Below, piece by piece: positions 8,074-26,426 of a stretch of 64,000 bases of DNA. The stretch spans positions 1-64,000 of the forward strand of contig NZ_JACEFB010000008.1 of assembly GCF_013694095.1 (NCBI RefSeq). The letters run 5' to 3'. The first letter of the stretch is position 1. Each line of letters begins with the position of its first letter. The position numbers were made by a program, and so were the translations under genes. Below the pieces are notes generated by a model. That model searched no databases. It was not told the origin of the DNA and saw only the letters and a program-made list of their open reading frames with translations. This DNA is from Thermogemmata fonticola. Its GTDB lineage: Bacteria > Planctomycetota > Planctomycetia > Gemmatales > Gemmataceae.

Positions 8074-11000
8074 ATGACCCCAGAAACCACACGCGACACG
8101 GAATTCGTCTTCCGCCGACTCGGGGAATCATTCCCGCAGTTTCTCGCGGACTTGTGGGCCGCCTTGCCGCTGACGCTGGTGGTCCTGACTTTGCTGCTCT
8201 TCGCAGCCCGGATCGCCGCGCAGCGGTATTACTCTCGCGGGCCGGGAGCTGGCCCTGGCAAGCCGGCACCCATCGTGCGCTTGCTCAACGGGGCCATATT
8301 CCTAAGCAGTGCGACCTGCATCCTCTGGTTCCTCTACGCCTTTTATCAGCGAGACACAGCCCAGATCCGCAGCGGACAAGCGGAAGGCACGCCCGGTGAA
8401 AGCAACCCCGTGCTATGGTACATCAGCGTCGGAGTCTTATTCGCCTTAGCCGCCTTCTACGTCGCCGTGCAATACCTGCGGGATAGCCGCTCGATCCGCT
8501 GGTATTGGGCCACCCTGCTGGCTCTGGTGCGCTTGTCCGTCTACGCCATACTCCTCGCTGTCTTTCTGCTCCCTGCTCAGCAGACGTGGGAGAAGACGGA
8601 GAAGCGCTCGCGGGTTGTTGTGCTGCTGGATATTTCCCCCAGCATCACCCAGGTCAGCGATGAAGTTAGCAGTGGCGGCCCACGGACTCCCCGCACGCGG
8701 ATCGAACACCTCATCGAGTTTCTCACCGATGAGCAAGTGCAATTCGTCCACCGCCTGCTCCAGAATAACCCTGTGGTTGTTTATGCCTTCGGGACTCGAC
8801 TGGATGAGACACCCCAGGTGATGGAACGGGGAAGCGCCCCCTGGTCCCGTCAGGAGTGGGAAGCTTTCGCCCATTATGATTTCCGCCCATTTCTGTTGCG
8901 CGGTTTGTCACCGGCGGGCCAGCAAGCGTTGCAGAACACCACGACGCCGGACTGGAACGGACCGCGCCCCCCCGCCGGACAGCGCCGCGCGGGACCGCCC
9001 CAATGGGCAGACTGGGCTACCCAATGGTACGCTCGGCGTGACGAAGGACTCAGCCCCAACCCCCAGGAACCGCCTAAGCCCCTCGTCGCCGGCCTGTCCC
9101 CGGAAGATGACGCCATCCTGCGGGACAACTTGCGCAAGCTGGACCGCCGGATCGAAGTCGCTCGCGCCATCGTTCTGGGAACCAACATCCCTGATGCCAT
9201 CCTGACGGCGATCAACCGAGAAGCTCCGAACATGACACAAGGGATCATCGTCTTCTCCGATGGACGGAGCAACCTCGGCAGCGATGCCGTCATTCGTGAG
9301 GTCCGCCAGCGAGCCAGCCGGGAGAAAATCCCAATCTTCACCGTCGCTGTCGGCGTGGAACGCCGCTTCACGAGCATTGCCATCACCGAAGTGCAAACCG
9401 ATGACGTCGTCACTCCGGACCAGGGTTTCAAAGTGGCCGTCCATGCCGATGGCGTCAATCTGGCCCATCAGAGCGTTCCTGTAGAACTCGATGTTTTCTA
9501 CTTGGGCAAGGATGCTCGTGTTACAGACCTGAAAGACCGCCAGCCGGATTTCACTTTCAATGCTCAGACGCATCCTCGCAAGGAACCTTACCAGATCACC
9601 TTTACTCCCGGCGAGCCGCCTCACGGGCAGATCGAGTTCGAGATCGACCCGGCCAAACTCCAGCAGTATCCGCAAGGCAAAATCCTCACGGAAGAGTCCA
9701 AGGACACGGCGATCAAAAAGCCGGTGCTCAAGGAGGGAGTCTGGGCGGTCCGCGCCCGCATCCCCCGTCATCCTGACGAAGTCTTCCCCGAAGCGGAGCA
9801 CACCCGTGAGCGCCTCGGCATCCAGGTGCAGCAGAAGGTCCTGCGCGTGTTGCTCTGGGCTTCCGCCGCCAACCGGGAGTTCCAATTCCTGCGCACCTTC
9901 CTGATGCGGGAAGCCAAGGATAAACGGGTCGAGCTGACATTACTCGTGCAGAATGACGCGGGGCGCAGCGGCCAACTGACGCCCAATCCTGAAGAGCGGC
10001 TGATCAAGCGCTTCCCCGACCGCCTCGATCTGGCGGACAGGAAGGTCGCACCGGACGAGAAAGGCTACAACCTCAACGAGTATGACCTGATTGTGGCTTT
10101 CGATCCGGATTGGTCGGAAATTACGCAGCAGCAAGCCGAACAACTGCAAACGTGGGTCCAGCGGCAAGGAGGAGGACTGATCTTCGTCGCCGATCGGATC
10201 CACACGGCCCAACTGATCCGCCGGGGAATGGAAGCCGGCAGCCAGCTCAATCCGATCCTGGAAATCCTGCCGGTGCTTCCTGACGATATTATCGCGGTCA
10301 AAATCCGGGCCATATCTCGACACCCCCGCCGCCTGTATCTCAACCCCATTCCCGGTTCCGATCTGCTGCAACTGGAGGAAGTGGACCCGCTGACCCAGCC
10401 CTCGGACAAGGGCGTCTCTCCCCAGGATCCTGTGGCCGGGTGGGAGCAGTTCTTCACCGATCGCGAACGCTACAGCAAACATCCGGACTACAAGGTGGAA
10501 TTGTTCCCCCGGCGCGGTTTTTACTCCTGCTATCCTGTCAAGGAAGTTAAGCCGGGCGCGCATGTTCTCGCAGAGTTTGCGGAGATTGATGAGCGCGGCG
10601 AATTGGCCCGCCGGCCTTTCCTCGTCACGAACAACCCAGCAGCGGCTTGGCGCACCGCCTTCCTCGCCTCGCCCGAGCTTTACCGCTTGCAATCCTATCC
10701 CAGCAGAGGTCGGGAATACTATGAGCGGTTTTGGGGGAAATTCCTCCGCTACATGGCTGCCAAGCGGAATGTCAAGGCTAGCCGCGGACGCATTCTGATT
10801 AGCAAGGAGCTTCGCGTCGGCTCCCTCATCCGCGTTCAGGCGCAGATTCTCGATCCGAGTTCCCGGCCTTATCCGCTGGAAGGCGGCGGTGCTATCAGCC
10901 CCAAGTTCAGCATCTGGCGAATTGCCCCCACGAGCGAGCAACCGGAGTTGGTGGAAGCCGGCCTGCCACTGCAACCCAAACTCAGCGGCAACGATTTTGA

Positions 11001-11553
11001 AGGGTACTACACTGGCCAGGTCGTCGCCGACGCCCGCAAATTCCCTCCGGAAGGGGAATATCTGGTACGCATTGAAGTTCCGGACAGCGCCGGCGAAGTA
11101 CTGCAAAGCCGCTTCCACCTCGTGCGGGCCAACCCGGAGCTGGACAACACCACCCCGGACCATGCGGCCCTGCTAGCCCTGGCCAGCCCCTTCGATACCG
11201 ATCTGCAACGGCGCGTCCCCGAACGCGTTCGGACCCTCTGGAGCCAGCAGCTCCCTAAAGATGAAGGCGGAACTCCTAAACTGAAATTCACCCTGGACGA
11301 CCGCGCCCCGCTCAGCCTCATCCCGGACTGCTTCCGGGCGGAAGAGCAAAGCTCACTGATCCGCGGGCCGGTCAACGATCTCTGGGACCGGGGCATCCAA
11401 TTGCCTCAGCAGCGCGAAGATGGCTCCTGGTGGGAGCGTAACATTCCCAGCGCCTGGAGCGGCAAATACCTGCCCGTCAGTTGGGTGATGCTGGTGGTTA
11501 TCAGCCTGCTGTGTGTGGAATGGGCCGTGCGGAAATTGCTCCGTCTGGCCTGA
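8074..11553 (+). CDS. large vWA membrane protein of the MoxR cluster
   Basis: A 1159-residue protein with about four N-terminal membrane helices (residues 25-175) and a vWA domain. The MIDAS motif is DISPS near residue 190, and IIVFSDGRSNLGSD and FTVAVGVE continue the fold (390-430). A long extracytoplasmic part follows, including a glutamine-amidotransferase-like region (YDLIVAFDPDW and RQGGGLIFVADR, about 670-710). One C-terminal helix (about 1133-1150) ends it. The arrangement mirrors the preceding BatA-like protein, with which it probably forms a membrane complex. The gene is 86 bp downstream of it. Clients and substrate are unknown. Confidence 0.85.
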   Translation: MTPETTRDTEFVFRRLGESFPQFLADLWAALPLTLVVLTLLLFAARIAAQRYYSRGPGAGPGKPAPIVRLLNGAIFLSSATCILWFLYAFYQRDTAQIRSGQAEGTPGESNPVLWYISVGVLFALAAFYVAVQYLRDSRSIRWYWATLLALVRLSVYAILLAVFLLPAQQTWEKTEKRSRVVVLLDISPSITQVSDEVSSGGPRTPRTRIEHLIEFLTDEQVQFVHRLLQNNPVVVYAFGTRLDETPQVMERGSAPWSRQEWEAFAHYDFRPFLLRGLSPAGQQALQNTTTPDWNGPRPPAGQRRAGPPQWADWATQWYARRDEGLSPNPQEPPKPLVAGLSPEDDAILRDNLRKLDRRIEVARAIVLGTNIPDAILTAINREAPNMTQGIIVFSDGRSNLGSDAVIREVRQRASREKIPIFTVAVGVERRFTSIAITEVQTDDVVTPDQGFKVAVHADGVNLAHQSVPVELDVFYLGKDARVTDLKDRQPDFTFNAQTHPRKEPYQITFTPGEPPHGQIEFEIDPAKLQQYPQGKILTEESKDTAIKKPVLKEGVWAVRARIPRHPDEVFPEAEHTRERLGIQVQQKVLRVLLWASAANREFQFLRTFLMREAKDKRVELTLLVQNDAGRSGQLTPNPEERLIKRFPDRLDLADRKVAPDEKGYNLNEYDLIVAFDPDWSEITQQQAEQLQTWVQRQGGGLIFVADRIHTAQLIRRGMEAGSQLNPILEILPVLPDDIIAVKIRAISRHPRRLYLNPIPGSDLLQLEEVDPLTQPSDKGVSPQDPVAGWEQFFTDRERYSKHPDYKVELFPRRGFYSCYPVKEVKPGAHVLAEFAEIDERGELARRPFLVTNNPAAAWRTAFLASPELYRLQSYPSRGREYYERFWGKFLRYMAAKRNVKASRGRILISKELRVGSLIRVQAQILDPSSRPYPLEGGGAISPKFSIWRIAPTSEQPELVEAGLPLQPKLSGNDFEGYYTGQVVADARKFPPEGEYLVRIEVPDSAGEVLQSRFHLVRANPELDNTTPDHAALLALASPFDTDLQRRVPERVRTLWSQQLPKDEGGTPKLKFTLDDRAPLSLIPDCFRAEEQSSLIRGPVNDLWDRGIQLPQQREDGSWWERNIPSAWSGKYLPVSWVMLVVISLLCVEWAVRKLLRLA

Positions 11554-11652
11554 GCGAACAACCCCGATACTCCCGGTGAAGTGTCATCGCTCAATAGCGC
11601 AGGAGACCCAGCACCGCCACGCTACCTGTGCTCGCAGGAGAAAATGAGAACC

Positions 11653-14600
11653 ATGGCTACCTCTGTTCCTACTCCCTCGAGTCCCACCCGGCTGGATGAA
11701 CGCTTGGTCCATCCCCTGGAACAGCTCCGGGGATTGATCCGCCGTTATGTTGTGATCGAAGGGATTCTCGCCGCCCTGATCTTCCTCGGCGGCTGGTATG
11801 CCTTTCTCCTGCTGGTCGACTACGGCGTGTTCAAACTGTTCACCTGGGATTGGGTGGTGGAAAGTGGACGCTGGCTGCGAGGGGCCGCTTTGACGGCCGC
11901 TCTGATCCTCCTCGTCGCTCTCCTCGTGCGGCGGATCATTATCCGCTTGACAACCGAATTGTCGTATCCATCACTGGCCTTGGTTCTGGAACGACACTTC
12001 CCGGACTTGCTAGGAGACCGTCTCATCACCGCGGTCGAGCTGGCCGATGTGGAACGGATGGCTCGCTACGGTTATTCCCCAGCCATGATCCGGCAAACGA
12101 TTGCTGAAGCACGCGAGCTGGTGGGCCGGGTTGCCGTGTGGGAAGTTTTCAACTGGGAGCGTTTGCAGCGCATGGCAGTCTGGGCCATCGGCCTCCCCTT
12201 GCTCACGGTGCTATTGTCCTTCGCCATACATGCCGTGGCGGTCGGAGGCTTTCAGCCACGGGCGGCCGCCTGGAAACTCTGGCACGTGACGACCCTGCTC
12301 GTGGAACGCGACATCCTGCTCTGGGACACCCCCTGGCCCCGCCGCGCCTTGCTGATCCCTGATGAAGCCACGGCCCAAGGGCTGCGTATCGCACGAGATG
12401 GCGGGGCGGCCCGGCTGCGAGCCTACTCCTACCGCTGGGTCATCGCCGACCGCAACCGGCCGGAAGGATGGCGACCTCTGCTTTGGAGCGATGTAACCGA
12501 AAACTGGATTGGCCGGAGCATCCCAGCCATTCCTTTCCCGCTCCTGGGTTTGCCGGACGAACCCAACACCCGGACAGCTCTGGCAGGACTCGCCGGAGCA
12601 CCCCTCTTGCCTGCTCCTGGAAGCTTCCCGGAGACCAACCCAACTCTCCCCACAGATCCGTCAGCCTGGACGGTCGATGAACTCGAGCGTCGCCTTTTCA
12701 GCAAGGATGAAGCCCTCCAGCGGCGCTTACGCCAAGCTATGGGAGACCAGTATGGGGCGTTGCTGGCTGTGTTCCACCGCCTGGAAGCCTTGGCTAACGA
12801 TCCCGCCTGGGGCCGCACCCTACGGCACCTGGAGGTTCCCGCTCAGGTGTTCTACAGCTACAGCGGCCGGCGCACTGCCGGAAGCGGCCCCCTGGCTCCG
12901 GAAGGACATAACGCCTACGTGGGAGAGATCAGTGGTCTGAAGGAGGATGTCCGTTTTGTTCTCAAGGCCGAAGATTTCCGCACACCGCCGCGCCCGATCA
13001 CTCTGGTTCCTCCCCCCACGCTGACCCTCTTGACGGCCACCACCTACGAACCCGCCTATCTGCACCATCCCGCCCCGCAGGGCCGAGGTTACGAAGCCCT
13101 CCGCGGTCTGCGCCAGCGCATGCCGGAACAACGCCTCTCCCTCACCGGCGATAAGAGCATTCTGATCGTCCCCTCCGGGACAGAAGTGGTTCTCACGGCC
13201 ACCACGGAAGAGCCGATTGTCGCCGCCTATGTTCTCCCCAAGGTGGGACGACTTCCCGGTGCTAAACCGGGTTCTGCCGCTCCGGTCCCCTTGCCACTGA
13301 TTGACGCCAGGGCCGATCCGGACGCCCCCGCCGCGCCCCCGTCAGGCCGGACTTGCGTGCTGGAGTTCCGCAACGAGTTCCGCCTCACCGCTCCGGTTGA
13401 ATGCGAGTTGGAACTGGTCAATGCCGATGGCATTCGCTCCCGCCGAGAACTGCTCATCCAGGTGGTGGACGATCAACCGCCGACTGTGGAAATCGCTCCC
13501 GACATCATCCGCCGCGTTGGGAATCGCTACTACGTGACCCCGCGGGCTAAAATCCCCTTCCACCCAGACAGCTACCTGCGGGACGATCATGGATTGAGCA
13601 AGGTGGAGTATCTCGCCACCTTTTACCCGGAAGAAAGTGAATTCGGCCAGGGTTTACGCGCCGCCCACGCCCTGCGAGCCTTGGCTCCTCTCCCCGTGCC
13701 GGGAAGTCCCGCTCCGCTGGAAGCCGCTGTAATGACCCATTGGGCCCAGCGCACCACCCAACAACCCCCTGCGCAAGAAGCGGCCTTCCTCCTGGCCAAG
13801 TTCTATCGCCTCGAACAGGCCCTCCGCCGCGAAACGCCTGAACATCTAGCTACTCTCCTACAGCAACCCCTCTCTCGCGAAAACCGCGACCTGGTCCGGA
13901 CCTTCAAGCTGCGGACCGAAATCCTCCCCCGCCGCACCACTCGCTCCGACGGTTCCCTGGAATCATTCCGCTGGGAAGTGGATGGCGATTACTTCGATAT
14001 GAGCGGTCTGGGACTGGAAACCCCAACAGGCGAGGTCCAGCAGCGCTACCGCGTGGATCTGACCATCCGCGCCACGGATACCAACTTCGATACCGGACCG
14101 CAAACCGCAATCACGGCCGAACCGCTCCGCCTGCTGGTCGTCTCCCCGGCGGACCTGCTCGTCGAGATCGGCAAGGAGGAGGAAGCGCTGGCGGTCAAAC
14201 TCGACGATGCCTTGCGCCGCCTCAATGATGCCCAGCGTAAATACGCATACGTCCGCTCCGTCCACGAGAGCCAGCGCCTCGACGAGCTGGATCCTGCTCG
14301 GGTTCGTGCCAAAGATTGCGCTCAAGACCTCAGCAAAGCCCGCGAGCTGGTTCAGCAAGTCGCTCGCGAATTCCGGCGCATCGAACGGGAATGCATCGTC
14401 AATCAACTGGAAGAACGCACCCTCATCCACTACGGCACGTTCACCAACCGCCTCGATCGGGTCTTAGGTGATAATCCCCTGACCATCAGCCCGGAGGAAG
14501 ACGAACAATGGCGCAGCGGACGGCTGTTGCCCGAACAAACCTTCCCGGAAGTGGAAACGCTCCAGCAAAGGGTCTTGACCAGCCTCGAAGAAGGGCGGCT

Positions 14601-15093
14601 GGCCGAACCGCTCCTCGTCGTCCAGGCCGATAACGCTCTTCAGGCCCTCTACCGCGAATTGAGTAAAATCCGCTCTATCCTCGGCGAAGCCCAAAGCAAA
14701 GACCGCCTCATCCGCGAGCTGACGGCACTGATCGAGCGCCGCGAACGCATCCGTCAGGAACTGATCCGCTGGCGCGCAGAACTCGAAGCCGATCGCTTCG
14801 CCAAAGAACCGGCGATCGGCCCCGCTGGACCTGTCTTCCTCGCCAAAGGGGAAAGCAAGCGCCTCAAGCACACTATCCGCTGGCGTCAATACGAGGAAGA
14901 TGAATTGTCCATCCAATTGACCGTCTCCCAACCCCAGGCCTTGCAGGTACCCGCGCAACTGAAACTCAACTTCGAGACCCACCAGAATGAGTTTGACTAT
15001 GAAGTGCGCGCCGGCAACATCGAAGGGGAATTTACTATTACTCTCACCCCCAAGAGTGGGCAGCCCGTAACTGTCAAGGTTACAGTCAAATGA
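11653..15093 (+). CDS. large membrane protein with coiled coil (DUF4175-like position)
   Basis: About 1146 residues. Three hydrophobic helices lie near the N-terminus (about 35-60, 75-95 and 180-205), followed by a long beta-rich extracytoplasmic part. An alpha-helical, Glu/Arg/Leu-rich coiled coil (about 840-1070) comes next, and a short C-terminal domain rich in Thr and Val. Proteins with this layout follow the vWA genes in many planctomycete MoxR clusters and resemble DUF4175 proteins, but I cannot confirm family membership. The frame opens with a GTG at 11581. ATG at 11653 (12 nt after AGGAG) or 11644 (3 nt after it) are better starts, and I chose 11653. Confidence 0.8.
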   Translation: MATSVPTPSSPTRLDERLVHPLEQLRGLIRRYVVIEGILAALIFLGGWYAFLLLVDYGVFKLFTWDWVVESGRWLRGAALTAALILLVALLVRRIIIRLTTELSYPSLALVLERHFPDLLGDRLITAVELADVERMARYGYSPAMIRQTIAEARELVGRVAVWEVFNWERLQRMAVWAIGLPLLTVLLSFAIHAVAVGGFQPRAAAWKLWHVTTLLVERDILLWDTPWPRRALLIPDEATAQGLRIARDGGAARLRAYSYRWVIADRNRPEGWRPLLWSDVTENWIGRSIPAIPFPLLGLPDEPNTRTALAGLAGAPLLPAPGSFPETNPTLPTDPSAWTVDELERRLFSKDEALQRRLRQAMGDQYGALLAVFHRLEALANDPAWGRTLRHLEVPAQVFYSYSGRRTAGSGPLAPEGHNAYVGEISGLKEDVRFVLKAEDFRTPPRPITLVPPPTLTLLTATTYEPAYLHHPAPQGRGYEALRGLRQRMPEQRLSLTGDKSILIVPSGTEVVLTATTEEPIVAAYVLPKVGRLPGAKPGSAAPVPLPLIDARADPDAPAAPPSGRTCVLEFRNEFRLTAPVECELELVNADGIRSRRELLIQVVDDQPPTVEIAPDIIRRVGNRYYVTPRAKIPFHPDSYLRDDHGLSKVEYLATFYPEESEFGQGLRAAHALRALAPLPVPGSPAPLEAAVMTHWAQRTTQQPPAQEAAFLLAKFYRLEQALRRETPEHLATLLQQPLSRENRDLVRTFKLRTEILPRRTTRSDGSLESFRWEVDGDYFDMSGLGLETPTGEVQQRYRVDLTIRATDTNFDTGPQTAITAEPLRLLVVSPADLLVEIGKEEEALAVKLDDALRRLNDAQRKYAYVRSVHESQRLDELDPARVRAKDCAQDLSKARELVQQVAREFRRIERECIVNQLEERTLIHYGTFTNRLDRVLGDNPLTISPEEDEQWRSGRLLPEQTFPEVETLQQRVLTSLEEGRLAEPLLVVQADNALQALYRELSKIRSILGEAQSKDRLIRELTALIERRERIRQELIRWRAELEADRFAKEPAIGPAGPVFLAKGESKRLKHTIRWRQYEEDELSIQLTVSQPQALQVPAQLKLNFETHQNEFDYEVRAGNIEGEFTITLTPKSGQPVTVKVTVK

Positions 15094-15475: not shown

Positions 15476-17563
15476 ATGAACAGCCCGTGGTCACCCCTAC
15501 CCGTTCTGGGACGAATCGGTCGTGGCTGGGCCGTCGGGATTCTGGCCGTGTTGTGTTGGGGTGTCGGCTGGCTGGCCGCTCAGCAACCTCCCCCTGCTGA
15601 CCGCCTCAAGAGCACTGAAGAGGAAAACCTCAAGCTCTACAAGCGTTTCGCAGACGAAATGCTCCGACTGGCCCAACGCTGGGAAAAAAGCGACAACCCG
15701 GAGGATCGGGAACGCGCCAAGGTCCTGCGGGCGGCTCTCAACCTGGCGGAACAGCGCGGCGTGGAAAACCTCTACAAGGAACTGATCCAGGGACTGAGCC
15801 GCCCCAATCCGACCAGCAGTGACTTTGAAACACTCCTGGGAAAGGATGCTCGCCTCTTGGCTGCTCTGCGCGAAATCCTCCTCACCTTGACCACGGAAGA
15901 TGAAGCCGAACGCCTCCGCCGGCAAATCGCCGAAATGCAAAAAACCCTCGGCGAATTGAAGCAACTCAAGCGGGACCTGGAAAACGTCCGCGCCCGGACG
16001 GAAAACCCCCGAAGTGATAGCGACAAGATCGCCAAAGACCAGCGCGACCTAGCGAACCGAACCCAAGACCTGGCCAACCGGCTCGGCGGGCAGGAGGGTA
16101 AAGGCACCAGCGGCAACGCTCAGGCCGGTAAGGACGATCGGGCCGAAACCAAACCGGAAAGCAAGCCCGGTGAAGCCGCCCCCGAAGCCCGTCCCGATAC
16201 CCCCGATAGCAAAGGCGACACCAAGGCCGCGGGAGAGAATGCCGCCAATCCCGCGGAATCTCGTTCCGCTCCCCCTTCCGATGCTAATGCCGGAGAAGAC
16301 CGCGACGCTCCCAAAGACCCCCAGGCCGCCGGCTCCAAACCCTCCGAAGCCAAACCCTCGAATTCTGCCCAGAATCCCGGCAACGGCAATAATCCCTCTA
16401 ATCCGAACGCCGGGAACCAAAATCCCAATCAACCGGGCCAGAGCAGCAGCCAGAACCCCAACAACGCCAGCACCCCCAACGCTGGACAGCAACAGGCAGG
16501 AGCCAGCAAGTCCCAAGGGGAAGGCAAAGGAGAGTCCCGTTCCAGCAACGGGCAGCAAGGCGGCCAAGGCAAGCCGATGAACCAACAGGCCAGCGGCAGC
16601 CAGGGCAGCTCCGGCCAGCAACAAGCGGGTTCTTCCAAGCCCTCCGGCGGCCAGAGTGGCGGGCAAAGCGGCGGCCAGAGCGGCGGACAAAGCGGCGGAC
16701 AAAGTGGCGGACAACAAGGAAATAATTCCTCGCAACGGGACCCCGCCCAGCAAAACGTCCAGGAGGCCGTGCCACCCCAACAGGGCGCGGAACAAGATAT
16801 CCGCAATAACAAGCGGGAGGAAGCCTCCAAGAAACAGGATGACGCCATCCGCAAGATCGAAGAAGCCATCCGGGAACTGGAAAAACGCCTCAAACAAATG
16901 CGGGAAAAGGAACTCCTCAAACTCCTCGCCAACCTCGAAGAGCGAATCAACCGCATGCTCCGCATGCAGATCGAAGTCCGGGAAGCCACCATCCGGATTG
17001 ATCAGGGCATTCAGCGGAATAACGGTCAACGAACGACTGCGGACCTGCAAAAAGCCCAGGTCGAGGCGGAAAAGGAAATGCAAATCATCCTGGAAGCGGA
17101 CAAAGCCCTCCAACTGATGGAAAACGAAGGGTCCGCCGTGGTCTTTGCCGGCGTCCTGCGTGAAGTCCGCAGCGACATGGAAACAGTCCGCAAACGCCTC
17201 GAAGCCGGCCGGGTCGAAAAGCAAACCCAGGACATCGAGCAGGACATCATCGATCAACTGCTCATGATGCGCGAAGCCCTCAAAAAGGCCCGCCAGGACA
17301 TGGAAAACCAGGCCAACAACAGCCAGCCTTCGGATCCCAACGCCCGCCAAGGCAAACCGAAACTGATCGACCTGCTCAACGAACTGAAACTGGTCCGTTC
17401 CTTACAGGACCAGGTCAATAAACGGACGATTAGCTACAACAAACAGGAGCCGGGAGAACAAGCCAAAGACCCCCTCCTTCAGGAAGAGATTCGCAAACTC
17501 GGCGAACGCCAGCGCATCATCCAGGAGATGCTCCACAAAATCGCCACGCAGGCGAACCAGTAA
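15476..17563 (+). CDS. exported low-complexity / coiled-coil protein
   Basis: A 695-residue protein with an N-terminal signal or anchor (about residues 15-35, ending AAQQ). A charged helical region follows (40-210), then a disordered Asn/Gln/Gly/Ser/Pro-rich stretch (about 215-430), then long Glu/Lys/Arg-rich coiled coils (about 440-695). The disordered part includes six GGQS-type repeats. I recognise no enzyme domain. It is the sixth gene of the MoxR/vWA cluster and probably a periplasmic scaffold or partner of the preceding coiled-coil membrane protein (inference). Start ATG with GAGGAG upstream. The composition means database hits to its middle part would be unreliable. Confidence 0.82.
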   Translation: MNSPWSPLPVLGRIGRGWAVGILAVLCWGVGWLAAQQPPPADRLKSTEEENLKLYKRFADEMLRLAQRWEKSDNPEDRERAKVLRAALNLAEQRGVENLYKELIQGLSRPNPTSSDFETLLGKDARLLAALREILLTLTTEDEAERLRRQIAEMQKTLGELKQLKRDLENVRARTENPRSDSDKIAKDQRDLANRTQDLANRLGGQEGKGTSGNAQAGKDDRAETKPESKPGEAAPEARPDTPDSKGDTKAAGENAANPAESRSAPPSDANAGEDRDAPKDPQAAGSKPSEAKPSNSAQNPGNGNNPSNPNAGNQNPNQPGQSSSQNPNNASTPNAGQQQAGASKSQGEGKGESRSSNGQQGGQGKPMNQQASGSQGSSGQQQAGSSKPSGGQSGGQSGGQSGGQSGGQSGGQQGNNSSQRDPAQQNVQEAVPPQQGAEQDIRNNKREEASKKQDDAIRKIEEAIRELEKRLKQMREKELLKLLANLEERINRMLRMQIEVREATIRIDQGIQRNNGQRTTADLQKAQVEAEKEMQIILEADKALQLMENEGSAVVFAGVLREVRSDMETVRKRLEAGRVEKQTQDIEQDIIDQLLMMREALKKARQDMENQANNSQPSDPNARQGKPKLIDLLNELKLVRSLQDQVNKRTISYNKQEPGEQAKDPLLQEEIRKLGERQRIIQEMLHKIATQANQ
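16646..16717 (+). repeat. 12-bp tandem repeat coding for (GGQS)n
   Basis: Six consecutive 12-bp units, each coding Gly-Gly-Gln-Ser (the last Gly-Gly-Gln-Gln), lie in the disordered part of the exported coiled-coil protein. Units differ mostly at third codon positions (GGC/GGG/GGA, CAG/CAA), so the array is not freshly amplified, but copy number could still vary between strains. Confidence 0.85.
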
Positions 17564-17582
17564 TCTGTCTCCGAGGACGGAA

Positions 17583-17606: not shown

Positions 17607-17653
17607 CCCATGGAGCGGCTGAGCAAACCCTGTTGTGATCTTACGTCCAACCG

Positions 17654-17876: not shown

Positions 17877-18986
17877 GTGTCCGCTCGCATTCTCTCTTGG
17901 ACGCTTCTGACGGCGGGTTGTGCCTGGGTGCTCTCCGCCAGCACGATGGCTCGTGCCGCCGAGCCGAACAAGTCCGGGCGCACTCCGACTTTCGGCTTCA
18001 GCACCCTCCGCACGATGACGGAGGAAGCTGCCAAGACCCAAGCCCTGGAGTGGCTCCGCAGCACGGGACGCTATGATGCCGCCACCTTCGACCGGATTTG
18101 GAATGATCAGGGGCGCTCGCTCATCGACCGCACGGCGGATGTGCTAGCTCTGGGACTGCCCCAAGCTCAGGCCGCTCTCCAGCAGGTCCGCGATCCCAAC
18201 GCTCCTCCTCCGGAAGCAGCCCCCGCCTTCCTTCGGGACAGCAGTCTGGATCCGTTCGTGCGGACCAACCTTGCGTTGGCTTTCGCCAAGGCTGCGGTCA
18301 ATCGCAAGGTTTACGAAGAAGCATTGGAAGCTCTCAACGGAGGAGTGGTGGAGAAGGCTGTGGACCCCGCCGCCTTCCTCTTCTACAAGGCCGTGTGCGA
18401 ACATGCCACGATCCAAAAGAGCGCCGCTACCCGTTCTATCCTCCGCTTGCTCGATGAAGTGGCCGACGCCCCAGATCGCTACAAGCTCGTCGCCTCCCTG
18501 ATGTTCTTCGAGATGCAAAATTGGTCTCCTGATCCGAAAGACCTGGCCAACATCGAACGGTTGATGGACAACAGCGGGCGGCGCCTGGAACTGGCCCGCG
18601 CCGGCGAAAAAACCCAAGACATCCAGCGTAAAATCATCTTCCGCCTCGATGAGCTGATCAAGGAACTGGAAAATCAGCAGAAAAACGGCGGCGGCCAATG
18701 CAACGGCGGCAACTGCCCCAATGGCGGCCAACCCAACGGGAATCGCCCCGGCAGCCAGCAGAATGCCAGCAACCCGGCCCCCGATAGCGTCATCATGGGC
18801 GGCTCCGGAAAAGGAATCGTCGATGAAAAGGAACTCCGCAAGATCGCCGAGAGCTGGGGTACTCTTCCCCCCGACAAGCGCGCCAAGATCATCGAAGACA
18901 TCAACCGCGACCTGCCGCCCAAGTACAAGCCGATCATCGACGAGTATTTCAAGGCCCTCAACCGGATTCACGGCTACAGCAAATAA
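17877..18986 (+). CDS. exported helical protein, last gene of the MoxR/vWA cluster
   Basis: A 369-residue protein starting at GTG (GGAGGAG at about 17862-17868). A signal peptide (LLTAGCAWVLSASTMARAAE) ends near residue 34. The mature protein is helical, with a Gly/Asn-rich linker containing CNGGNC (about 270-300) and a conserved-looking C-terminal segment (about 305-365) rich in Lys, Asp and Pro. I do not recognise the family. Similar exported proteins close MoxR/BatA clusters in planctomycetes, so a role in the same envelope complex is the best guess. It is separated by about 310 bp from the previous gene and may have its own promoter. Confidence 0.78.
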   Translation: MSARILSWTLLTAGCAWVLSASTMARAAEPNKSGRTPTFGFSTLRTMTEEAAKTQALEWLRSTGRYDAATFDRIWNDQGRSLIDRTADVLALGLPQAQAALQQVRDPNAPPPEAAPAFLRDSSLDPFVRTNLALAFAKAAVNRKVYEEALEALNGGVVEKAVDPAAFLFYKAVCEHATIQKSAATRSILRLLDEVADAPDRYKLVASLMFFEMQNWSPDPKDLANIERLMDNSGRRLELARAGEKTQDIQRKIIFRLDELIKELENQQKNGGGQCNGGNCPNGGQPNGNRPGSQQNASNPAPDSVIMGGSGKGIVDEKELRKIAESWGTLPPDKRAKIIEDINRDLPPKYKPIIDEYFKALNRIHGYSK

Positions 18987-19254
18987 GCGTGGGCCAGGCG
19001 GCGGGATGGATCCCCCTCCCGCTTCAAAACCCCGTCATGACCAGGCTATGACCAGGTTCACAACGGACTCTCAAGCGGTGACCCCCTGCGGTCACCGCTC
19101 GGCTCAACGGATGGAGGAACCGCTGGACGCTCGTGCTCCCTCCCATCATCTTGGAGTGGGTAGAGTCTTGTTTCCATTCGGGCCACTGGCACGCCGGTCT
19201 GGAAGCCGCCCTTTCCTAGCTTTTCTGGTTCCAAACATTCATCGCCAAGCTCTC

Positions 19255-20514
19255 ATGCCACACGGAATAACAGCCTGGTGCCGCTTTTTGGGAACTGTGA
19301 TGCTCGTGCTTTGGGGTGCGGCTCTGTCCCTCTCCGCTGCCGAGGTGATCACCCTGGATGGGAAGAAATTGGCCGGCGACCTTCTCGCCGTCGAGAAGGA
19401 GCGGATCACCCTCCGGGTCGGCCAGGTTCAAGTCCAGATTCCCAACAACTCCCTCCTCGCTGTGGAGTTCGGGCGAACGGTTCCGCCTCTGCCCAAAGGG
19501 GCAAGATACCACGAAATCGAACTGACGGACGGTTCCACTCTGCGGGTGAGCCGCTTTAGCATCAAACAGCGGCAGGTGGAATGCGAACTGCTCAGCGGTC
19601 CCGAGGATGTTCCTCTTCCCCGTTATGATTTGTCCCTCGATGTCGTCTTTTTTATGATGAAGGGTGCGGAAGACCCCACCGTGCGGACGGCGTGGAAGAA
19701 AATGCTCAATGCACGAGGCAAACGGGATCTCTACGTGATCCGGGAAGGAGATACCTTGAACTTCCTGCAAGGCACCATTCACGGCGGCACGCCTGACGGA
19801 GCACGCCTGGACTTTGAACGTGCCGAGGGAGAGCGAGTTTCCCTCCTTCAGTCCCGCGCTACGGGAGGGTTGGTCCTGGCGCACCCGCCCCGGGGAAATC
19901 TTCCCCCCAAACTGTGCAAAGTGCTGGATGTGTTTGGCAATCAACTGGTCGCTCAAAGTGTGGAATTGACGGAGGGGGGCGTCCTGGTCACCACCGTGGC
20001 TGGCGTGCGCTTCCACTATCCCAAGCTGGCGGCCCTGGCCCGCCTCGATTTTTCGCTCGGCAACCTGGCCTACCTCTCGGACTTACCGCTGCAAATTACA
20101 GCTCCAGAGCTTCCGGCAGAAGAGAAGGAACTGCGCCTGCACCTGCATTTGCCCGTTCTCAAGGACCGAGGACTGTCCGGGGAGGTTTTGAAGGTGGCAG
20201 GCCAGCCTCCCTTCACCAAAGGCCTACTGATCGCGCCGGATACCGTCATCACTGTCGAGCCGGGGGGTGAATATCGCGAATTTCAGGCCATCGCTGGGTT
20301 GCCGGAGTCGGTTCTCGACGGGCAACTGGCCGTTCAGCTCACCGTGGAAGGAGACGGCCGGGTCCTCTTCCAGCAAACCCTCCGCCGCAAGGACCCTCCC
20401 AAGCCGTTGGCCTTGGACATCCAAGGCGTGCGCCAATTGCGGCTGATCGTGGAAGGAGATTTTGCTGTCAATGGCAATCGACTGATCCTGGGCAATGCTC
20501 GATTCGTCAAATGA
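19255..20514 (+). CDS. exported protein with C-terminal NPCBM-like domain
   Basis: The frame is open further upstream, but the only N-terminus with a signal peptide is ATG at 19255 (GTVMLVLWGAALSLSAAE), giving 419 residues. The middle is beta-rich. The last 140 or so residues resemble an NPCBM/NEW2 carbohydrate-binding jelly roll: an AIAGLPESVLDGQLAVQLTV segment, VLFQQTL, then a closing LALDIQGVRQLRLIVEGD and ILGNARFVK. NPCBM domains occur in many planctomycete exported proteins and bind glycans or act as a beta-sandwich adaptor. It stands before three HtrA-like genes. The specific ligand is unknown. Confidence 0.72.
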   Translation: MPHGITAWCRFLGTVMLVLWGAALSLSAAEVITLDGKKLAGDLLAVEKERITLRVGQVQVQIPNNSLLAVEFGRTVPPLPKGARYHEIELTDGSTLRVSRFSIKQRQVECELLSGPEDVPLPRYDLSLDVVFFMMKGAEDPTVRTAWKKMLNARGKRDLYVIREGDTLNFLQGTIHGGTPDGARLDFERAEGERVSLLQSRATGGLVLAHPPRGNLPPKLCKVLDVFGNQLVAQSVELTEGGVLVTTVAGVRFHYPKLAALARLDFSLGNLAYLSDLPLQITAPELPAEEKELRLHLHLPVLKDRGLSGEVLKVAGQPPFTKGLLIAPDTVITVEPGGEYREFQAIAGLPESVLDGQLAVQLTVEGDGRVLFQQTLRRKDPPKPLALDIQGVRQLRLIVEGDFAVNGNRLILGNARFVK

Positions 20515-20654: not shown

Positions 20655-22508
20655 ATGAAACAGAATCCGAGGAGCAATCGCTACACCGCAAGCAGGGGAT
20701 GGTTGGCCGCCATCGTCCTGGGGCTTGGGGGAATAGCTGTCTCATTCTCGTGGGAGCGACCGGTTGTTAGTCAGGCTAGAGCAGAAGTCGAGCCGGCGGT
20801 GATGCAAGCCCAGGCCCAGCGCATCGCCGTGATCCAGAAAGTGGCTCCGGCGGTAGTGGCCGTCTGCATGCGCGGCGGGCAGGGAGTCGGTTCCGGTGTG
20901 CTGATCTCCCCGGACGGCTACGCCCTGACCAACTTCCACGTGGTGCAACCCACCGGACCTATCCTGCAAGCGGGACTGCCCGATGGCGTTCTTTACGACG
21001 CCGTGGTGGTGGGCATCGACCGGGTCGGCGATGTCGCTTTGATCAAACTGCTGCCCAAGGAGCCGGGCAAACCTTTCCCCTATGTGCCGTTAGGCGATAG
21101 CGACAAGGTCCGCATCGGCGACTGGTCCCTGGCGATGGGTAACCCCTTCTCACTCGCCCTGGATTTCACACCGACTGTCACCTACGGCATCGTCAGCGGC
21201 ACCAACCGCTATCAGCCTCCCGAAGGGCGCGGACTGCTGGAATACACCGATTGTATTCAGATTGAAACGTCCATCAATCCAGGTAACTCCGGCGGCCCGC
21301 TTTTCAACATGCAAGGCGAGTTGATCGGCATCAATGGCCGGGGATCGTTCGAGAAACGCGGACGAGTCAATTCCGGCGTGGGATACGCTATCTCCATCAA
21401 CCAGATCAAAAACTTCTTGGGCCATCTCTACGCCGGCCTGGACGCTGACCATGCCACTTTGGGAGCCATTGTGCAAACGGCGGCCGAGGACGCCCCTCTC
21501 TCCCAAATGGTGATCACCCAGATGCTGGAAGAATCCGATGCCTACCGCCGCGGCTTGCGCAGCGGCGATCAACTGGTCTCCTTTGCCGGCCGCATCGTGA
21601 CCAGCACCAACCAATATAAAAACATCCTGGGCATTTTCCCCAAGGAATGGCGCGTGCCCATCGTCATCCGCCGCAATAATGAACGGATGGAACTCCTGGT
21701 GCGCCTGATGGGCAATTTGCCCCAAGAGATTGAACCCGGAAAACGCCCTGTTCCGGAGAAGCCCCCCGTTCCTATTCCGCTTCCCGGCAAGGAACCGCGA
21801 GCCTTACCCCCTAGCCCTGCTGCCCAACTGTACAAACCCAAAAAAGGGTATGCCAACTGGTACTTCAACGAATTGGAACGAGACAAGCTGCTCTCGGCTT
21901 TCCGCAAGCATGGCGACTTCAGCTCCCTGGCGGGAAACTGGACCTTGGAAGGCCAGTATCAGCGGGGCGAGCAGAAGGGCAACTTCCGCTGCGAAATCCT
22001 CACGAGCGGGGAAGAACCGCTGGTGAAGATGCTCCTGAACGCCTCCTATGAATTGGCCCCCTTGAAAACGTCCGATCCCGCTTTGCTCCGGGAACCTGTC
22101 GGCAGCGGGGGCCTGATGGCCGCCCTGTACCACTATCAGCGCCTGCTGACTCAAGGACCCAAAGGGTTTGAAGGGGAATGCGCCCACGGCGGCCACGAAC
22201 CCTTCTACCCCTTCCCGCTGGAGGGCCCGCCTCCCGGCTCGCTTGCCAGCCTGCGTGTCGATTGCGCCGTCCTACGGACCCGGCATGGTGCCGTCGAGTG
22301 CAAGTGGTACTTCGACCGCAAAGACTCCCGCCTGCTCGGCTTTGAAACTTACACCACCAAGGACTCCGACCCCTGCGAAGTTTACTGCCACGACTACCGG
22401 CCGGTCGAGGGACGCCTGTTGCCCCACCGCCTGGAAGTCCGCCACGGCGACCGCCGCTATGCCGTCATTACCGTCGAGAAATACTCCTTCTCGGCTCCGC
22501 CGCGCTGA
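20655..22508 (+). CDS. HtrA/DegP-type serine protease with PDZ and extra C-terminal domain
   Basis: A 617-residue exported trypsin-fold protease. An N-terminal signal or anchor (about 14-32) is followed by a protease domain with an intact triad: His95 (TNFHVV), Asp126 (RVGDVAL) and Ser212 (GNSGGP). A PDZ domain lies at about 260-355, a Pro-rich linker at about 360-395, then about 220 residues of unknown beta-rich domain, longer than usual DegP-like proteins. It would degrade or refold misfolded envelope proteins. It is the first of three tandem HtrA paralogues and the only one with all catalytic residues. ATG at 20655; the upstream ribosome binding site is poor. Confidence 0.9.
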   Translation: MKQNPRSNRYTASRGWLAAIVLGLGGIAVSFSWERPVVSQARAEVEPAVMQAQAQRIAVIQKVAPAVVAVCMRGGQGVGSGVLISPDGYALTNFHVVQPTGPILQAGLPDGVLYDAVVVGIDRVGDVALIKLLPKEPGKPFPYVPLGDSDKVRIGDWSLAMGNPFSLALDFTPTVTYGIVSGTNRYQPPEGRGLLEYTDCIQIETSINPGNSGGPLFNMQGELIGINGRGSFEKRGRVNSGVGYAISINQIKNFLGHLYAGLDADHATLGAIVQTAAEDAPLSQMVITQMLEESDAYRRGLRSGDQLVSFAGRIVTSTNQYKNILGIFPKEWRVPIVIRRNNERMELLVRLMGNLPQEIEPGKRPVPEKPPVPIPLPGKEPRALPPSPAAQLYKPKKGYANWYFNELERDKLLSAFRKHGDFSSLAGNWTLEGQYQRGEQKGNFRCEILTSGEEPLVKMLLNASYELAPLKTSDPALLREPVGSGGLMAALYHYQRLLTQGPKGFEGECAHGGHEPFYPFPLEGPPPGSLASLRVDCAVLRTRHGAVECKWYFDRKDSRLLGFETYTTKDSDPCEVYCHDYRPVEGRLLPHRLEVRHGDRRYAVITVEKYSFSAPPR

Positions 22509-22674: not shown

Positions 22675-23922
22675 ATGACCCGTACCTGGACCGGTTTCTG
22701 CCATCGACTGGCTGCTTGGGGACTAGGCTTTTGGCTAGGATTCAGCTTGTGGCTATCGGCAGGTCCGCTTCTGGCAGCCGACCCATTCCATGAAGTGGCG
22801 GAAAAAACGAACAAGAAGTTGGTCAAGCTCTTCGGGGCGGGCGGTTTCTCCCGGCTCAATAACTTTGGCACAGGGATTATTGTCAGCCGCGAGGGGCATA
22901 TCCTGACCGTGGCCAGTCAATTGCTGGACACGCCTGATCTGGTGGTCCACCTCTACGACGGCCAGCGGTTGCGCGCTCAGGTGCTGGTGATCGAACCGGA
23001 GTTGGATGCTGCCCTGTTGAAGATTCGCGTGGAAGGAAAGCGGCCCGATGAACCCTCCGGTTTGGACCTGGATTATTTCGATATCGAGGAGGCTGCCCGC
23101 CGGCCGCGTGCTCAGGTAGGCGACTGGGTCCTGGCTCTCAGCAACACCTTCGAGATCGCCTTGCGTGATGAGCCGCTCAGCCTGCAACGGGGCGTCATCA
23201 TGGCCTACACGAAGATGGCCGGCCGCCGCGGAGTCTTCGAGTTTCCCTACACCGGCGAAGTGTACATTGTGGACGCCATCACCAACAACCCCGGTGCCGC
23301 CGGCGGTGCCCTGATTGATCGCAAAGGGAATCTTCTGGGAATCATTGGGCGGGAATTGCGGAACACACTCAGCGACACCTGGATGAACTATGCCATTCCA
23401 GTGCAGGCCAGCGTGGAGCTGAAAATCCGCGAACTGGTCAAGGACAACCAAGGCCGCGAGAGCGAACAGGAACGGACAGTCCGGATTTCCTTGCCGGAAT
23501 TCGTCCAAAAGGGGATGCGAGGAGAGTACAAGCCGATCTCCCGGCCGCGGACCGTAGCTGGCGAAGGCGGCTGGCATGGGATCATTTTTGTGCCCAACAT
23601 TCTGGAGCGCACGCCCGCCTATGTGGAGGATGTGGTGCCCGGTTCCCCCGCCGCTCAAGCCGGCTTGAGACCCGATGACCTGATCAGCTTCGTCGATGGG
23701 GAACCCGTGGTGAGCATCAAGGCCTTCCAGGAATGGATTCGCAAGAACACACGACCCGGCACGACCATCCGCCTGGAGGTCCGCCGCGGCGAGGCCTTGC
23801 AAACCGTGGAACTGACGTTGACGGCCCCTCCCTCCTCGCGCCCGCAACCGCCGCGCCAGCCTTCCCCTGCCCCGGACCCCAAGACCCCGCCGTCCCCGCT
23901 AGTGCCCAAAAAGAACCCCTAG
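22675..23922 (+). CDS. HtrA-like pseudoprotease with PDZ domain
   Basis: A 415-residue exported protein (signal peptide to about residue 38, FSLWLSAGPLLAAD). It keeps the HtrA trypsin fold and one PDZ domain (about 300-385) but not the catalytic machinery: the His position is Ser81 in ILTVASQL, and the GNSGG loop reads GAAGG, so Ala209 replaces the nucleophile. The Asp is still present (ELDAALLK). It therefore should not cleave peptide bonds and may act as a chaperone, adaptor or regulator of the active paralogue upstream, using its PDZ domain (inference). The reading frame is clean and the fold motifs conserved, so this looks like a selected pseudoenzyme rather than decay. The C-terminal tail is Pro-rich. 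Confidence 0.85.
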   Translation: MTRTWTGFCHRLAAWGLGFWLGFSLWLSAGPLLAADPFHEVAEKTNKKLVKLFGAGGFSRLNNFGTGIIVSREGHILTVASQLLDTPDLVVHLYDGQRLRAQVLVIEPELDAALLKIRVEGKRPDEPSGLDLDYFDIEEAARRPRAQVGDWVLALSNTFEIALRDEPLSLQRGVIMAYTKMAGRRGVFEFPYTGEVYIVDAITNNPGAAGGALIDRKGNLLGIIGRELRNTLSDTWMNYAIPVQASVELKIRELVKDNQGRESEQERTVRISLPEFVQKGMRGEYKPISRPRTVAGEGGWHGIIFVPNILERTPAYVEDVVPGSPAAQAGLRPDDLISFVDGEPVVSIKAFQEWIRKNTRPGTTIRLEVRRGEALQTVELTLTAPPSSRPQPPRQPSPAPDPKTPPSPLVPKKNP

Positions 23923-23990
23923 GACTCACGCTTTCCACCCTGGTTTTTGGGATTTGCATGACCCGGATTCGCCTGTTCGAGACACCACCC

Positions 23991-26426
23991 ATGATGACCA
24001 TGACACGGCACACCCTCTGGCTCACGGTCCTGATCGGAATGTCCGGCTTGGCTGCGCCAGCGGCGCGGGGCCAGACTCCGGGCAACTCGACGGATGTCAA
24101 CGAGGCCACCGAGCGCGCTCTCAAAGCCGCTGCGGCTCGTGTGGCTCCGTGTGTGGTCAAAATCGACACCGTCGGCGGAACCGAAGTGATCCCCGGCGGA
24201 GGCAAGAAAGGGCCGCCTGGCAAAGGGGGCATCATCCGCAAGGGAACCGGCCCCACCACGGGCTTGATCGTCTCACCTGACGGCTACATCATCACCAGCT
24301 CTTTCAACTTTGCCCACAAGCCCACCGACATTTACGTGACCATCCCCGGCAAGTCCACCCCCTTCGTTGCTAAGGTGGTCGCTCACGACCACAGCCGCAT
24401 GCTGGTCTTGTTGAAGGTCAATGCGACGGACCTGCCCGTTCCTGCGCCGGTGCTTAAGGGAGAAATCCAGGTCGGGCAGTGGGCCATCGCTTTGGGCCGC
24501 ACTTCGGACCCCGACATCGAACATCCTCCGTCGATGAGTATCGGCATCATCAGCGCCCTCAACCGAATCCACGGCAAGGCAATCCAGACGGATGCCAAGA
24601 CATCCCCCGTGAACTACGGCGGGCCGCTGGTCGCTGTTGATGGCCGTGTCTTTGGCGTGATCGTTCCCATGTCCAGCCGTGCCGAGGGAGAGACCGCCGG
24701 CGTGGAATGGTATGACTCCGGGATTGGCTTCGCCGTGCCGTTGGAAGACATCCTGCGCGTCTTGCCGCGTATGAAGCAAGGCCAGGACCTCCGCCGCGGC
24801 CTGTTGGGCATTACGCCCCAAAGCACCGATCTCTACTCCGCTCCGCCAGCGATCGGTTCGATTATGCCGGATTCGGCAGCGGCTCGGGCCGGCCTGCAAG
24901 TCGGCGACGTCATCCTGGAAGTCAACGGCAAACCCGTGCCCCATTACATCGCCTTGCAGCACCTGCTTGGCCCCCTTTACGAAGGAGACACCATCCGCCT
25001 GAAGGTCCGCCGAGGTGACAAGGAGCTGACTTTTCCCCAAATCACGTTGTTGGGCAGTAGTCCGGCCTTCGTCATGGCCTTCCTGGGAATCCTGCCGCTT
25101 CGAGATGATCCGGGACCGGGAGTGGTGGTGCGCTACGTCTATCCCAACAGTCCCGCCGCAGCCGCTGGCCTGCGCAGCGGCGACCGCATTCTTAAGTTCG
25201 GCCCCGCCGATGCCAAGGTTCTTCCCCCTGTAGCCAATCGGGCTGCCCTGCATAGCTTGTTGCAACGCCTCCCGCCTGGCACAGAAGTGAAGCTGGAAAT
25301 CCAGCGTCCCGCTGGCAAGGATGCCCCCCCCAAAGCTCCCCAGCCTGATCCTGCCAGCCCGCCGGACTCCAAGGAGGCTCAGACTCCCAAAGATGACTCC
25401 AAGCCCGGCAGCGATCCCAAGGCCACACTGACTCTCAAAGCCAAACTCATCCCCATGCCGGATGTGTTACCGGAGCAATTGCCCCTGCCCTCTTCGGCTG
25501 GCCGGGCGCTAGAAAAGCCCAAGGGTGCTCCTTCCGTTCCCTTGCCTCCGGGTTTTCCCAAGGGTCCCCTGCCGATCCCCAAAGGCCCACCAACCCCGGC
25601 TCCTAGCCCCCGCGAGGGAAGCAGTCTGTCCCTTCCTCCGGCAACTCCTGAGTATCGTCCTGGAGGAAACGGCGAGTTGGCGGAGAAGTGGGCCGGCACG
25701 CCCGTGCTTCCGGTGCTTGCTCAAACTCCGCAACAGCCGCCATCGTCTAGCCGGTCTGAGGACCCCCCAGGAGGCAAACCGGCGGATAAACCCAAGGTGG
25801 AAACCGGCCTGCTCCAGCGACTCAACGAAGCCCTGGGGCGGGAATACTGGCTTTACATCCCGGACAACTACGATCCGAATATCTCTCACGGCCTGATCGT
25901 CTGGTTCCACGACCGCGGCCCTGCTAAAGATCATGAACGCCTCAGTGCCCTGTTCCGGGAGTTCTGCGAGGATCACCATTTCATTCTGATGGGCCCCAAG
26001 TCGGCCAGCCGGGACGGTGCCTGGCTGCCCAGCGAGATGGACTTTGTCCTGCAAGATGTGCGTGCGGTGCTGAGCGCTTATACCATCGACCGCAATCGCA
26101 TCGTCGCCCACGGAGCCGGTCAGGGAGGGCAAATGGCTTTTTACGTCGGCTTCAATGCACGGGACCTGTTCCGCGGCGTGGCCGTGGTCGGCGCTACGTT
26201 GGGCACAAACCCCAAAGAGAACCTGGCGAATCAGCCGCTGTCCTTTTTCATTGCCGCCGGGGACAAGGACCCAGCCTTGGCCGAAATTAAGGAAAGCGTC
26301 CAGCTTCTGCGCGAGCGCCGCTTCCCCCTCATCTATCGAGAAATGAAGAATATCGGCCGGGAATACCTCGATGCCGACGCCTTCCACGATCTGCTGCTCT
26401 GGCTGGATTCCTTAGACCGCCTCTAG
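23991..26426 (+). CDS. HtrA-like pseudoprotease with two PDZ domains fused to degenerate alpha/beta hydrolase
   Basis: About 811 residues. The frame is open further upstream but overlaps the previous gene; ATG at 23991 gives a good signal peptide (LWLTVLIGMSGLAAPAARGQ), and 23958 is an alternative. The trypsin-like domain lacks all three catalytic residues: the His position is Phe (ITSSFNFA), the Asp is lost (HSRMLVLLK), and GNSGG reads VNYGG (Tyr209). Two PDZ domains follow (about 280-360 and 375-455), then a Pro/Lys-rich linker (about 460-595). The C-terminal alpha/beta-hydrolase fold (about 605-811) resembles feruloyl/PHB-depolymerase esterases, but its nucleophile elbow is HGAGQGG (Gly710 instead of Ser) and the usual GH before the last helix is GR. 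It appears to be a binding protein built from two inactivated enzymes. Confidence 0.8.
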   Translation: MMTMTRHTLWLTVLIGMSGLAAPAARGQTPGNSTDVNEATERALKAAAARVAPCVVKIDTVGGTEVIPGGGKKGPPGKGGIIRKGTGPTTGLIVSPDGYIITSSFNFAHKPTDIYVTIPGKSTPFVAKVVAHDHSRMLVLLKVNATDLPVPAPVLKGEIQVGQWAIALGRTSDPDIEHPPSMSIGIISALNRIHGKAIQTDAKTSPVNYGGPLVAVDGRVFGVIVPMSSRAEGETAGVEWYDSGIGFAVPLEDILRVLPRMKQGQDLRRGLLGITPQSTDLYSAPPAIGSIMPDSAAARAGLQVGDVILEVNGKPVPHYIALQHLLGPLYEGDTIRLKVRRGDKELTFPQITLLGSSPAFVMAFLGILPLRDDPGPGVVVRYVYPNSPAAAAGLRSGDRILKFGPADAKVLPPVANRAALHSLLQRLPPGTEVKLEIQRPAGKDAPPKAPQPDPASPPDSKEAQTPKDDSKPGSDPKATLTLKAKLIPMPDVLPEQLPLPSSAGRALEKPKGAPSVPLPPGFPKGPLPIPKGPPTPAPSPREGSSLSLPPATPEYRPGGNGELAEKWAGTPVLPVLAQTPQQPPSSSRSEDPPGGKPADKPKVETGLLQRLNEALGREYWLYIPDNYDPNISHGLIVWFHDRGPAKDHERLSALFREFCEDHHFILMGPKSASRDGAWLPSEMDFVLQDVRAVLSAYTIDRNRIVAHGAGQGGQMAFYVGFNARDLFRGVAVVGATLGTNPKENLANQPLSFFIAAGDKDPALAEIKESVQLLRERRFPLIYREMKNIGREYLDADAFHDLLLWLDSLDRL

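Follow-up and report, generated by a model that had tools for sequence, protein, structure and literature searches.

Why would a bacterium keep two HtrA-like proteins that appear unable to cut beside one that can? The question is raised by three tandem genes, here called g1, g2 and g3, in a window of 64,000 nucleotides from Thermogemmata fonticola (Planctomycetota, Gemmataceae; contig NZ_JACEFB010000008.1, positions 1 to 64,000 of the forward strand). The first gene codes for an HtrA protease in which the His-Asp-Ser triad is whole. At the same positions g2 reads Ser/Asp/Ala and g3 reads Phe/Met/Tyr, and the same replacements recur across many families and several classes of the phylum, where the three genes are nearly always retained together. 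This pattern suggests a role for the dead copies either in holding substrates for the protease that works or in controlling it.

Catalytic sites and domains of the three proteins

The Trypsin_2 profile scored above the Pfam cut-off in g1, g2 and g3 alike (Table 1). The structures predicted for the two inactive proteins, both from a class-wide alignment, were of the HtrA type: the g2 model (predicted local distance difference test [pLDDT] score of 85) matched DegQ (4ynn) with a Z score of 23.6 and the pseudoprotease MamO (5hma) with one of 21.1, and the g3 model (pLDDT of 81) matched DegQ (3pv3) with a Z score of 26.7 over 360 residues. The initial annotation had described an active enzyme beside two inactivated paralogues, all of HtrA fold and with PDZ domains. 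The motif alignment bears out the active enzyme and both sets of residues that it named (Ser81 and Ala209 in g2; Phe, Met and Tyr209 in g3), with the addition that g2 retains its catalytic Asp, which the original wording left out. The assignment of the fold also holds, as do the PDZ domains of g2 (one) and g3 (two), but in g1 there is only a weak PDZ_6 match (E value of 0.005) under the Pfam cut-off. An alternative placement of the catalytic residues was rejected, since the aligned motifs leave no place for a different His/Ser pair, the His found one residue further on in many g2 relatives is absent from g2 of the window, and no nucleophile is present. In none of the homologs examined is the triad restored. 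Judged by their sequences, g2 and g3 would each be a pseudoprotease of the HtrA fold, without the feature by which HtrA peptidases are defined and outside the MamO family, and we would file neither as a peptidase.

Apart from its catalytic domain, g1 has an export signal at the N terminus and a C-terminal domain after the protease part (approximately residues 380 to 617; window positions 21795 to 22508) with conserved Trp, Gly, and Pro positions. Neither a Pfam search nor a sequence search of the PDB found a relative of this domain, which is possibly undescribed.

The mechanically called open reading frame (ORF) of g3 begins at 23733, within g2; considering its signal peptide and the spacing, the start is probably the ATG at 23991 (or the alternative at 23958), and residues are numbered here from 23991. 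The protein ends in an alpha/beta-hydrolase-like domain of the esterase/polyhydroxyalkanoate (PHA)-depolymerase type that the initial annotation had passed over. The nucleophile serine expected in the elbow of such hydrolases is replaced by Ala709 in g3, and in the 99 rows of the alignment this column most often contains Met (46), with Leu in 16 rows, Gln in 8, and His in 6; Ser is found in only three.

Conservation, co-occurrence and fusion of the trio

We compared residues within the class Planctomycetia by searching 59 relatives and scanning named genomes (the best 80 of 326 relatives, among them Limnoglobus roseus, Zavarzinella formosa, Gemmata sp. and a metagenome-assembled genome of Blastopirellula), which gave 128 loci with g3, from which duplicates were removed before counting. 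Gene order (g1-g2-g3) and strand were the same in all 112 loci containing the three genes. The triad of g1 was whole in 79 of 79 covered rows. The His position of g2 was occupied by Ser, Asn, Thr, Gly, or Ala and never by His (0 of 89 rows), and its Ser position by Ala in 71 of 91 rows, Gly in 12, His in 4, and others in the remainder; the single row with Ser there had no His at the His position. In g3 the His position was Phe (93 rows), Tyr (5), or Trp (1), no row had Asp at the Asp position, and the nucleophile was replaced by Tyr in 100 of 100 rows. The columns of this dead site (QTDAKxSPxNYGGP and YDSGIGF) rank among the most conserved of the protein, and the Gly residues of the PDZ peptide loops are present in all 100 rows of g3 and in all 91 rows of g2 with a letter there.

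Profiles of the three genes were also run against 294 genomes spread evenly over the phylum. The calls rest on the score gap to ordinary HtrAs, which is narrow only for the lowest g3 (in G211) and the lowest g1 rows. Matches to g3 were found in 78 genomes, to g2 in 77, and to g1 in 77, with all three in 76; g1 or g2 without g3 occurred in none of the 294. The two incomplete genomes are accounted for by a contig end beside g3 (G105) and by a fused g1 under the threshold (G255). Approximately two-thirds of the trio-bearing genomes belong to Planctomycetia and the remainder to families of other classes, in which g3 is mostly short and devoid of the hydrolase-like domain. The g1 triad was whole wherever it was read in this sample. 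The replaced residues are fixed here too: the nucleophile position of g3 is Tyr in 77 of 77 genomes, and g2 lacks both Ser and His in 68 of 68. The oxyanion-hole Gly (chymotrypsin position 193), which in g2 of the window stands two residues ahead of Ala209, is retained by g2 in 68 of 68 genomes and lost from g3 in 77 of 77, with Ala, Val, Asn, or Ile instead. Since this glycine is kept in one protein and lost in the other, the route of inactivation differs, g2 being trap-like and g3 plugged. Apparent losses of g1 in the automatic phylum table, in seven genomes (G084, G178, G187, G225, G233, G255, and G298) were rejected, as these are g1-g2 fusions in which the second domain had been scored; gaps in other rows of the residue table come from retrieved stretches that end inside g1.

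In a maximum-likelihood tree, g1, g2, and g3 each formed one clade (support of 100/99 for g2 and g3 and 86/93 for g1). Given that each family is one clade, the trio is older than the split of the sampled classes, one possible transfer aside. This concerns a genome assigned to another class (G101, locus L206) in which all three genes group with the Gemmatales copies; either a whole-trio transfer or a binning error is possible. Compared with a congeneric genome (G001), the ratio of nonsynonymous to synonymous substitution rates (dN/dS) was 0.09 for g1, 0.06 for g2, and 0.10 for g3; calculated singly, the two dead domains of g3 gave 0.06 and 0.05. These values are approximate since dS (1.6 to 1.9) is near saturation. 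Both g2 and g3 are under purifying selection. The selected role that the initial annotation had proposed for the dead copies is thus upheld by this selection together with the cross-class conservation, the near-perfect co-occurrence, and the fixed replacement residues, and the substitutions, which it had suggested following within Gemmataceae, are kept well beyond that family.

In the seven genomes with apparent g1 losses, which belong to three families outside Planctomycetia, g1 and g2 are fused in frame into one polypeptide. In each fusion the N-terminal protease is intact (as verified in all but the His region of the g1 part of G255), and a long linker connects it to the dead protease and its PDZ domain at the C terminus; hydropathy of the linkers examined revealed no internal signal peptide before the g2 part. 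At the opposite extreme, the trio is scattered in G132, with the genes 0.3 to 2.9 Mb apart on one contig, and in others such as G058, G227, G250, and G331, all of which retain the three genes. Because of these fusions and of the retention when scattered, the coupling appears to be functional and to go beyond shared transcription, the fusions bearing directly on g1 and g2.

The upstream MoxR/VWA operon

Upstream of g1 lies a series of eight genes on the same strand, starting with a MoxR AAA+ ATPase (Table 1). This cluster (MoxR, DUF58, BatA, VWA, the 1170-, 695-, and 369-residue proteins, and the NPCBM protein; positions 2773 to 20514) is collinear across families of Planctomycetia. We read the 20 kb upstream of the trio in 16 relatives, and in 8 of them all eight genes were found in the same order followed by g1-g2-g3, making 11 genes. 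The others had the nearest two to five upstream genes, except G001 and G058, which had none. In several genomes of other classes, too, g1 is preceded by the three of these genes that lie closest to it. In G001 (loci L051 and L183) the trio and the downstream genes are kept, and immediately ahead of g1 there is either a rearrangement or a break in the assembly. Together with VWA partners, MoxR proteins serve as chaperones for cofactor insertion and complex assembly, as in NorQ/NorD and RavA/ViaA (PMC9976466, PMC10585395). A search of the open literature, with incomplete coverage, found nothing specific to this MoxR operon.

Table 1. Features of the HtrA trio and of the upstream operon (window positions), and g1-g2 fusions in other genomes (positions within each locus)
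Feature	Position	Strand	Basis
g1, active HtrA (S1C) protease, 617 residues	20655..22508	+	Trypsin_2, E 4.9e-31
g1 catalytic His95 (TNFHVV)	20937..20939	+	motif alignment
g1 catalytic Asp126 (GDVALI)	21030..21032	+	motif alignment
g1 catalytic Ser212 (NPGNSGG)	21288..21290	+	motif alignment
g2, HtrA fold and one PDZ, 415 residues, export signal	22675..23922	+	Trypsin_2, E 8.2e-17; PDZ_6, E 1.1e-12
g2 Ser81 at His position (TVASQL)	22915..22917	+	motif alignment
g2 Asp111, sole triad residue retained (LDAALL)	23005..23007	+	motif alignment
g2 Ala209 at Ser position (NPGAAGG)	23299..23301	+	motif alignment
g2 PDZ domain	23614..23820	+	Pfam
g3, HtrA fold, two PDZ, proline-rich linker, predicted dead hydrolase-like domain	23991..26426	+	Pfam, model
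g3 Phe105 at His position (TSSFNF)	24303..24305	+	motif alignment
g3 Met137 at Asp position (SRMLVL)	24399..24401	+	motif alignment
g3 Tyr209 at Ser position (SPVNYGG)	24615..24617	+	motif alignment
g3 PDZ1 (RGLLGI loop, both Gly invariant)	24801..25034	+	Pfam, alignment
g3 PDZ2	25122..25313	+	profile searches
g3 C-terminal alpha/beta-hydrolase-like domain, esterase/PHA-depolymerase type	25788..26423	+	NF050058, E 9.5e-11; esterase 3wyd, E 6e-8
g3 Ala709 at hydrolase-like nucleophile (codon)	26115-26117	+	nucleophile column of alignment
MoxR AAA+ ATPase, first gene of operon	2773..3846	+	AAA_3, E 2.5e-61; synteny
DUF58 protein	3954..4898	+	profile match; synteny
BatA-type membrane protein	5111..7987	+	profile match; synteny
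Membrane protein, 1159 residues, weak VWA match	8074..11553	+	profile match; synteny
Protein of 1170 residues, no Pfam match	11581..15093	+	synteny
Exported protein, 695 residues, low-complexity/coiled-coil	15476..17563	+	related ORF in 36/47 relative loci
Protein of 369 residues, no Pfam match	17877..18986	+	in 36/47 relative loci
NPCBM-domain protein, true start probably near 19250	18721..20514	+	PF08305, E 1.3e-16; in 39/47 relative loci
g1-g2 fusion	L193:7219-10554
g1-g2 fusion	L191:3159-5945
g1-g2 fusion	L240:1183-4137
g1-g2 fusion	L241:1237-4200
g1-g2 fusion	L251:1246-3900
g1-g2 fusion	L250:1273-3855
g1-g2 fusion	L252:197-3223

Proposed role, precedents and alternatives

We consider it probable, if well short of assured, that g1, g2, and g3 together form a module for proteolysis in the envelope, made up of one peptidase, a trap-like partner (g2), and a plugged scaffold (g3), and working with the MoxR genes. 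In such a module g1 would be the one cutting enzyme. The second protein, which keeps the HtrA fold, the oxyanion Gly, and the PDZ peptide loop and lacks the nucleophile and the general base, would be a naturally occurring equivalent of the Ser-to-Ala trap of DegP; most likely it is a noncatalytic subunit that, in a mixed assembly, binds substrate segments or g1 itself and so presents substrates or sets the activity of g1. With an invariant Tyr as the plug of its active site, the oxyanion Gly gone, and two PDZ domains kept, g3 would most likely be a scaffold or adaptor recognizing C-terminal or unfolded segments, which in Planctomycetia carries in addition a hydrolase-like domain that is likewise predicted to be dead. 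The MoxR AAA+/DUF58/BatA/VWA genes would be the partners of this module, which would probably provide periplasmic quality control as one arm of an assembly machine; service on the envelope side of that machine is the most economical reading of the trio. We infer from the genes the physical association of the three proteins, substrate binding, catalytic inactivity in vitro, and the tie to MoxR function. The initial annotation had suggested hetero-oligomers that regulate the active enzyme or present substrates to it; fusions and co-retention give indirect support to this for g1 and g2, and the participation of g3 would be the most conjectural part. A more specific version, possible and put forward tentatively, is an ancient hetero-oligomeric HtrA of Planctomycetota with one catalytic and two pseudoprotease subunits (one trap, one plugged), coupled mechanically or regulatorily across the membrane to the MoxR AAA+/VWA machine. 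If true, a single quality-control system would unite an assembly factor driven by ATP with a protease of the periplasm.

Several observations weigh against a single module. In several genomes g1 and/or g3 lie away from g2, so that adjacency is not essential, and g3 was fused to g1 or g2 in none of the loci read. The dN/dS values are approximate, as indicated above, and the absence of the eight upstream genes from the 20 kb before the trio in the sister species (G001) means that the link to MoxR may be loose.

The nearest precedent appears to be the MamE/MamO pair of magnetotactic bacteria, in which one gene cluster likewise codes for an HtrA that is active and a trypsin-like protein that is inactivated. 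MamO activates MamE noncatalytically, proteolysis by MamE requiring its dead partner, and in magnetosome systems such active/inactive pairs arose on several occasions, for which a selective pressure has been proposed (PMC4794232). MamO also has a degenerate triad and, as g3, a non-glycine residue at position 193. However, g2 and g3 score only 21.4 and 23.6 bits with the MamO equivalog model (NCBIfam NF040961; cut-off of 800) and have no TauE-like transporter domain (no Pfam match), g3 ending in the hydrolase-like domain instead. Here there are, in addition, two pseudoproteases with two inactivation routes, located by a MoxR/VWA operon rather than in a magnetosome island and ranging over several classes of a phylum. 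The Do-like HtrAs DegP, DegQ, and DegS (MEROPS S1C) share the fold, the PDZ domains, and the motif positions (structural Z scores of 23 to 27), but they are catalytically active. In Arabidopsis, Deg5 and Deg8 illustrate that a complex can contain distinct Deg proteins (PMC4877387); there, hetero-oligomers are described as built from homotrimers of two Deg proteases, whereas here two of the three members have no triad and the complex is a putative one.

Active/inactive HtrA pairing was thus known before, mainly from magnetosomes. What appears to be new is an active-dead-dead HtrA module spanning several classes of one phylum and associated with a MoxR/VWA operon; in the open literature, incompletely covered, we found nothing specific on inactive HtrA in planctomycetes. 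A trio retained since before several classes split, with its dead residues fixed, offers a clean and testable case of the service of a pseudoprotease to its active sibling, and it is placed in a widespread MoxR/VWA operon in a phylum with an unusual envelope.

An alternative that we regard as unlikely, although it would be no great surprise, is that g2 and g3 hold independent noncatalytic jobs (binding a metal, a cell-surface polymer, or unfolded protein) and share the operon for expression, with no action on g1. The metal-binding role of the MamO protease domain is separate from the activation of MamE, and the extra hydrolase-like domain and fully plugged site of g3 imply that its function need not concern peptides. 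The near-perfect co-occurrence, which persists when the genes are scattered, and the conserved PDZ loops argue against independence, and the fusions tie at least g2 to g1.

It is far less likely that the trio belongs to a MoxR-vWA ternary conflict system (Kaur et al. 2020) in which inactive trypsin domains serve as decoys. Inactive trypsin-like proteins do occur with MoxR/VWA genes here, and such domains have been reported in the effector position of these systems, which are found in planctomycetes as well (PMC7159879). Those systems are variable, however, and the operon described here is a stable envelope operon, vertically inherited, with a fixed order and no effector swapping. Its MoxR scores 206 bits with AAA_3 and 44 bits with bpMoxR, the proteins have export signals, and Pfam recognized no VMAP, iSTAND, FtsH, or beta-propeller third component among the genes of the cluster, though no search was dedicated to one.

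There is a marginally slimmer chance that g2 or g3 is still a hydrolase with a rearranged active site. In about half of the g2 relatives a His stands one residue past the canonical position (e.g., TVNNHIL), but g2 of the window has Gln there, g2 has no conserved Ser, Cys, or Thr either at the nucleophile position or beside it, and g3 lacks the oxyanion Gly as well as all three triad residues. Decaying duplicates or sequencing artifacts are hardly credible, even with all three catalytic residues of g3 lost, in view of the open frames, the dN/dS of about 0.05 to 0.1 in both dead domains, and the same replacements over many families and several classes; pseudogene decay was rejected on these grounds, as was a mutation private to this genome, the replacements being conserved in the relatives and in the phylum sample.

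A second, independent tandem of an intact and a dead HtrA-like gene is found in the same genome (L163:577-2803; contig C1, 144300-148000). Its dead partner, of 389 residues, has Ser at the His position, retains the Asp, and has Cys at the Ser position (SDCGGP), and within the protease fold its PDZ domain falls after the position of the Asp and before that of the Ser. The Cys at the nucleophile position is present in 19 of 19 rows, with the intact gene alongside in most loci.

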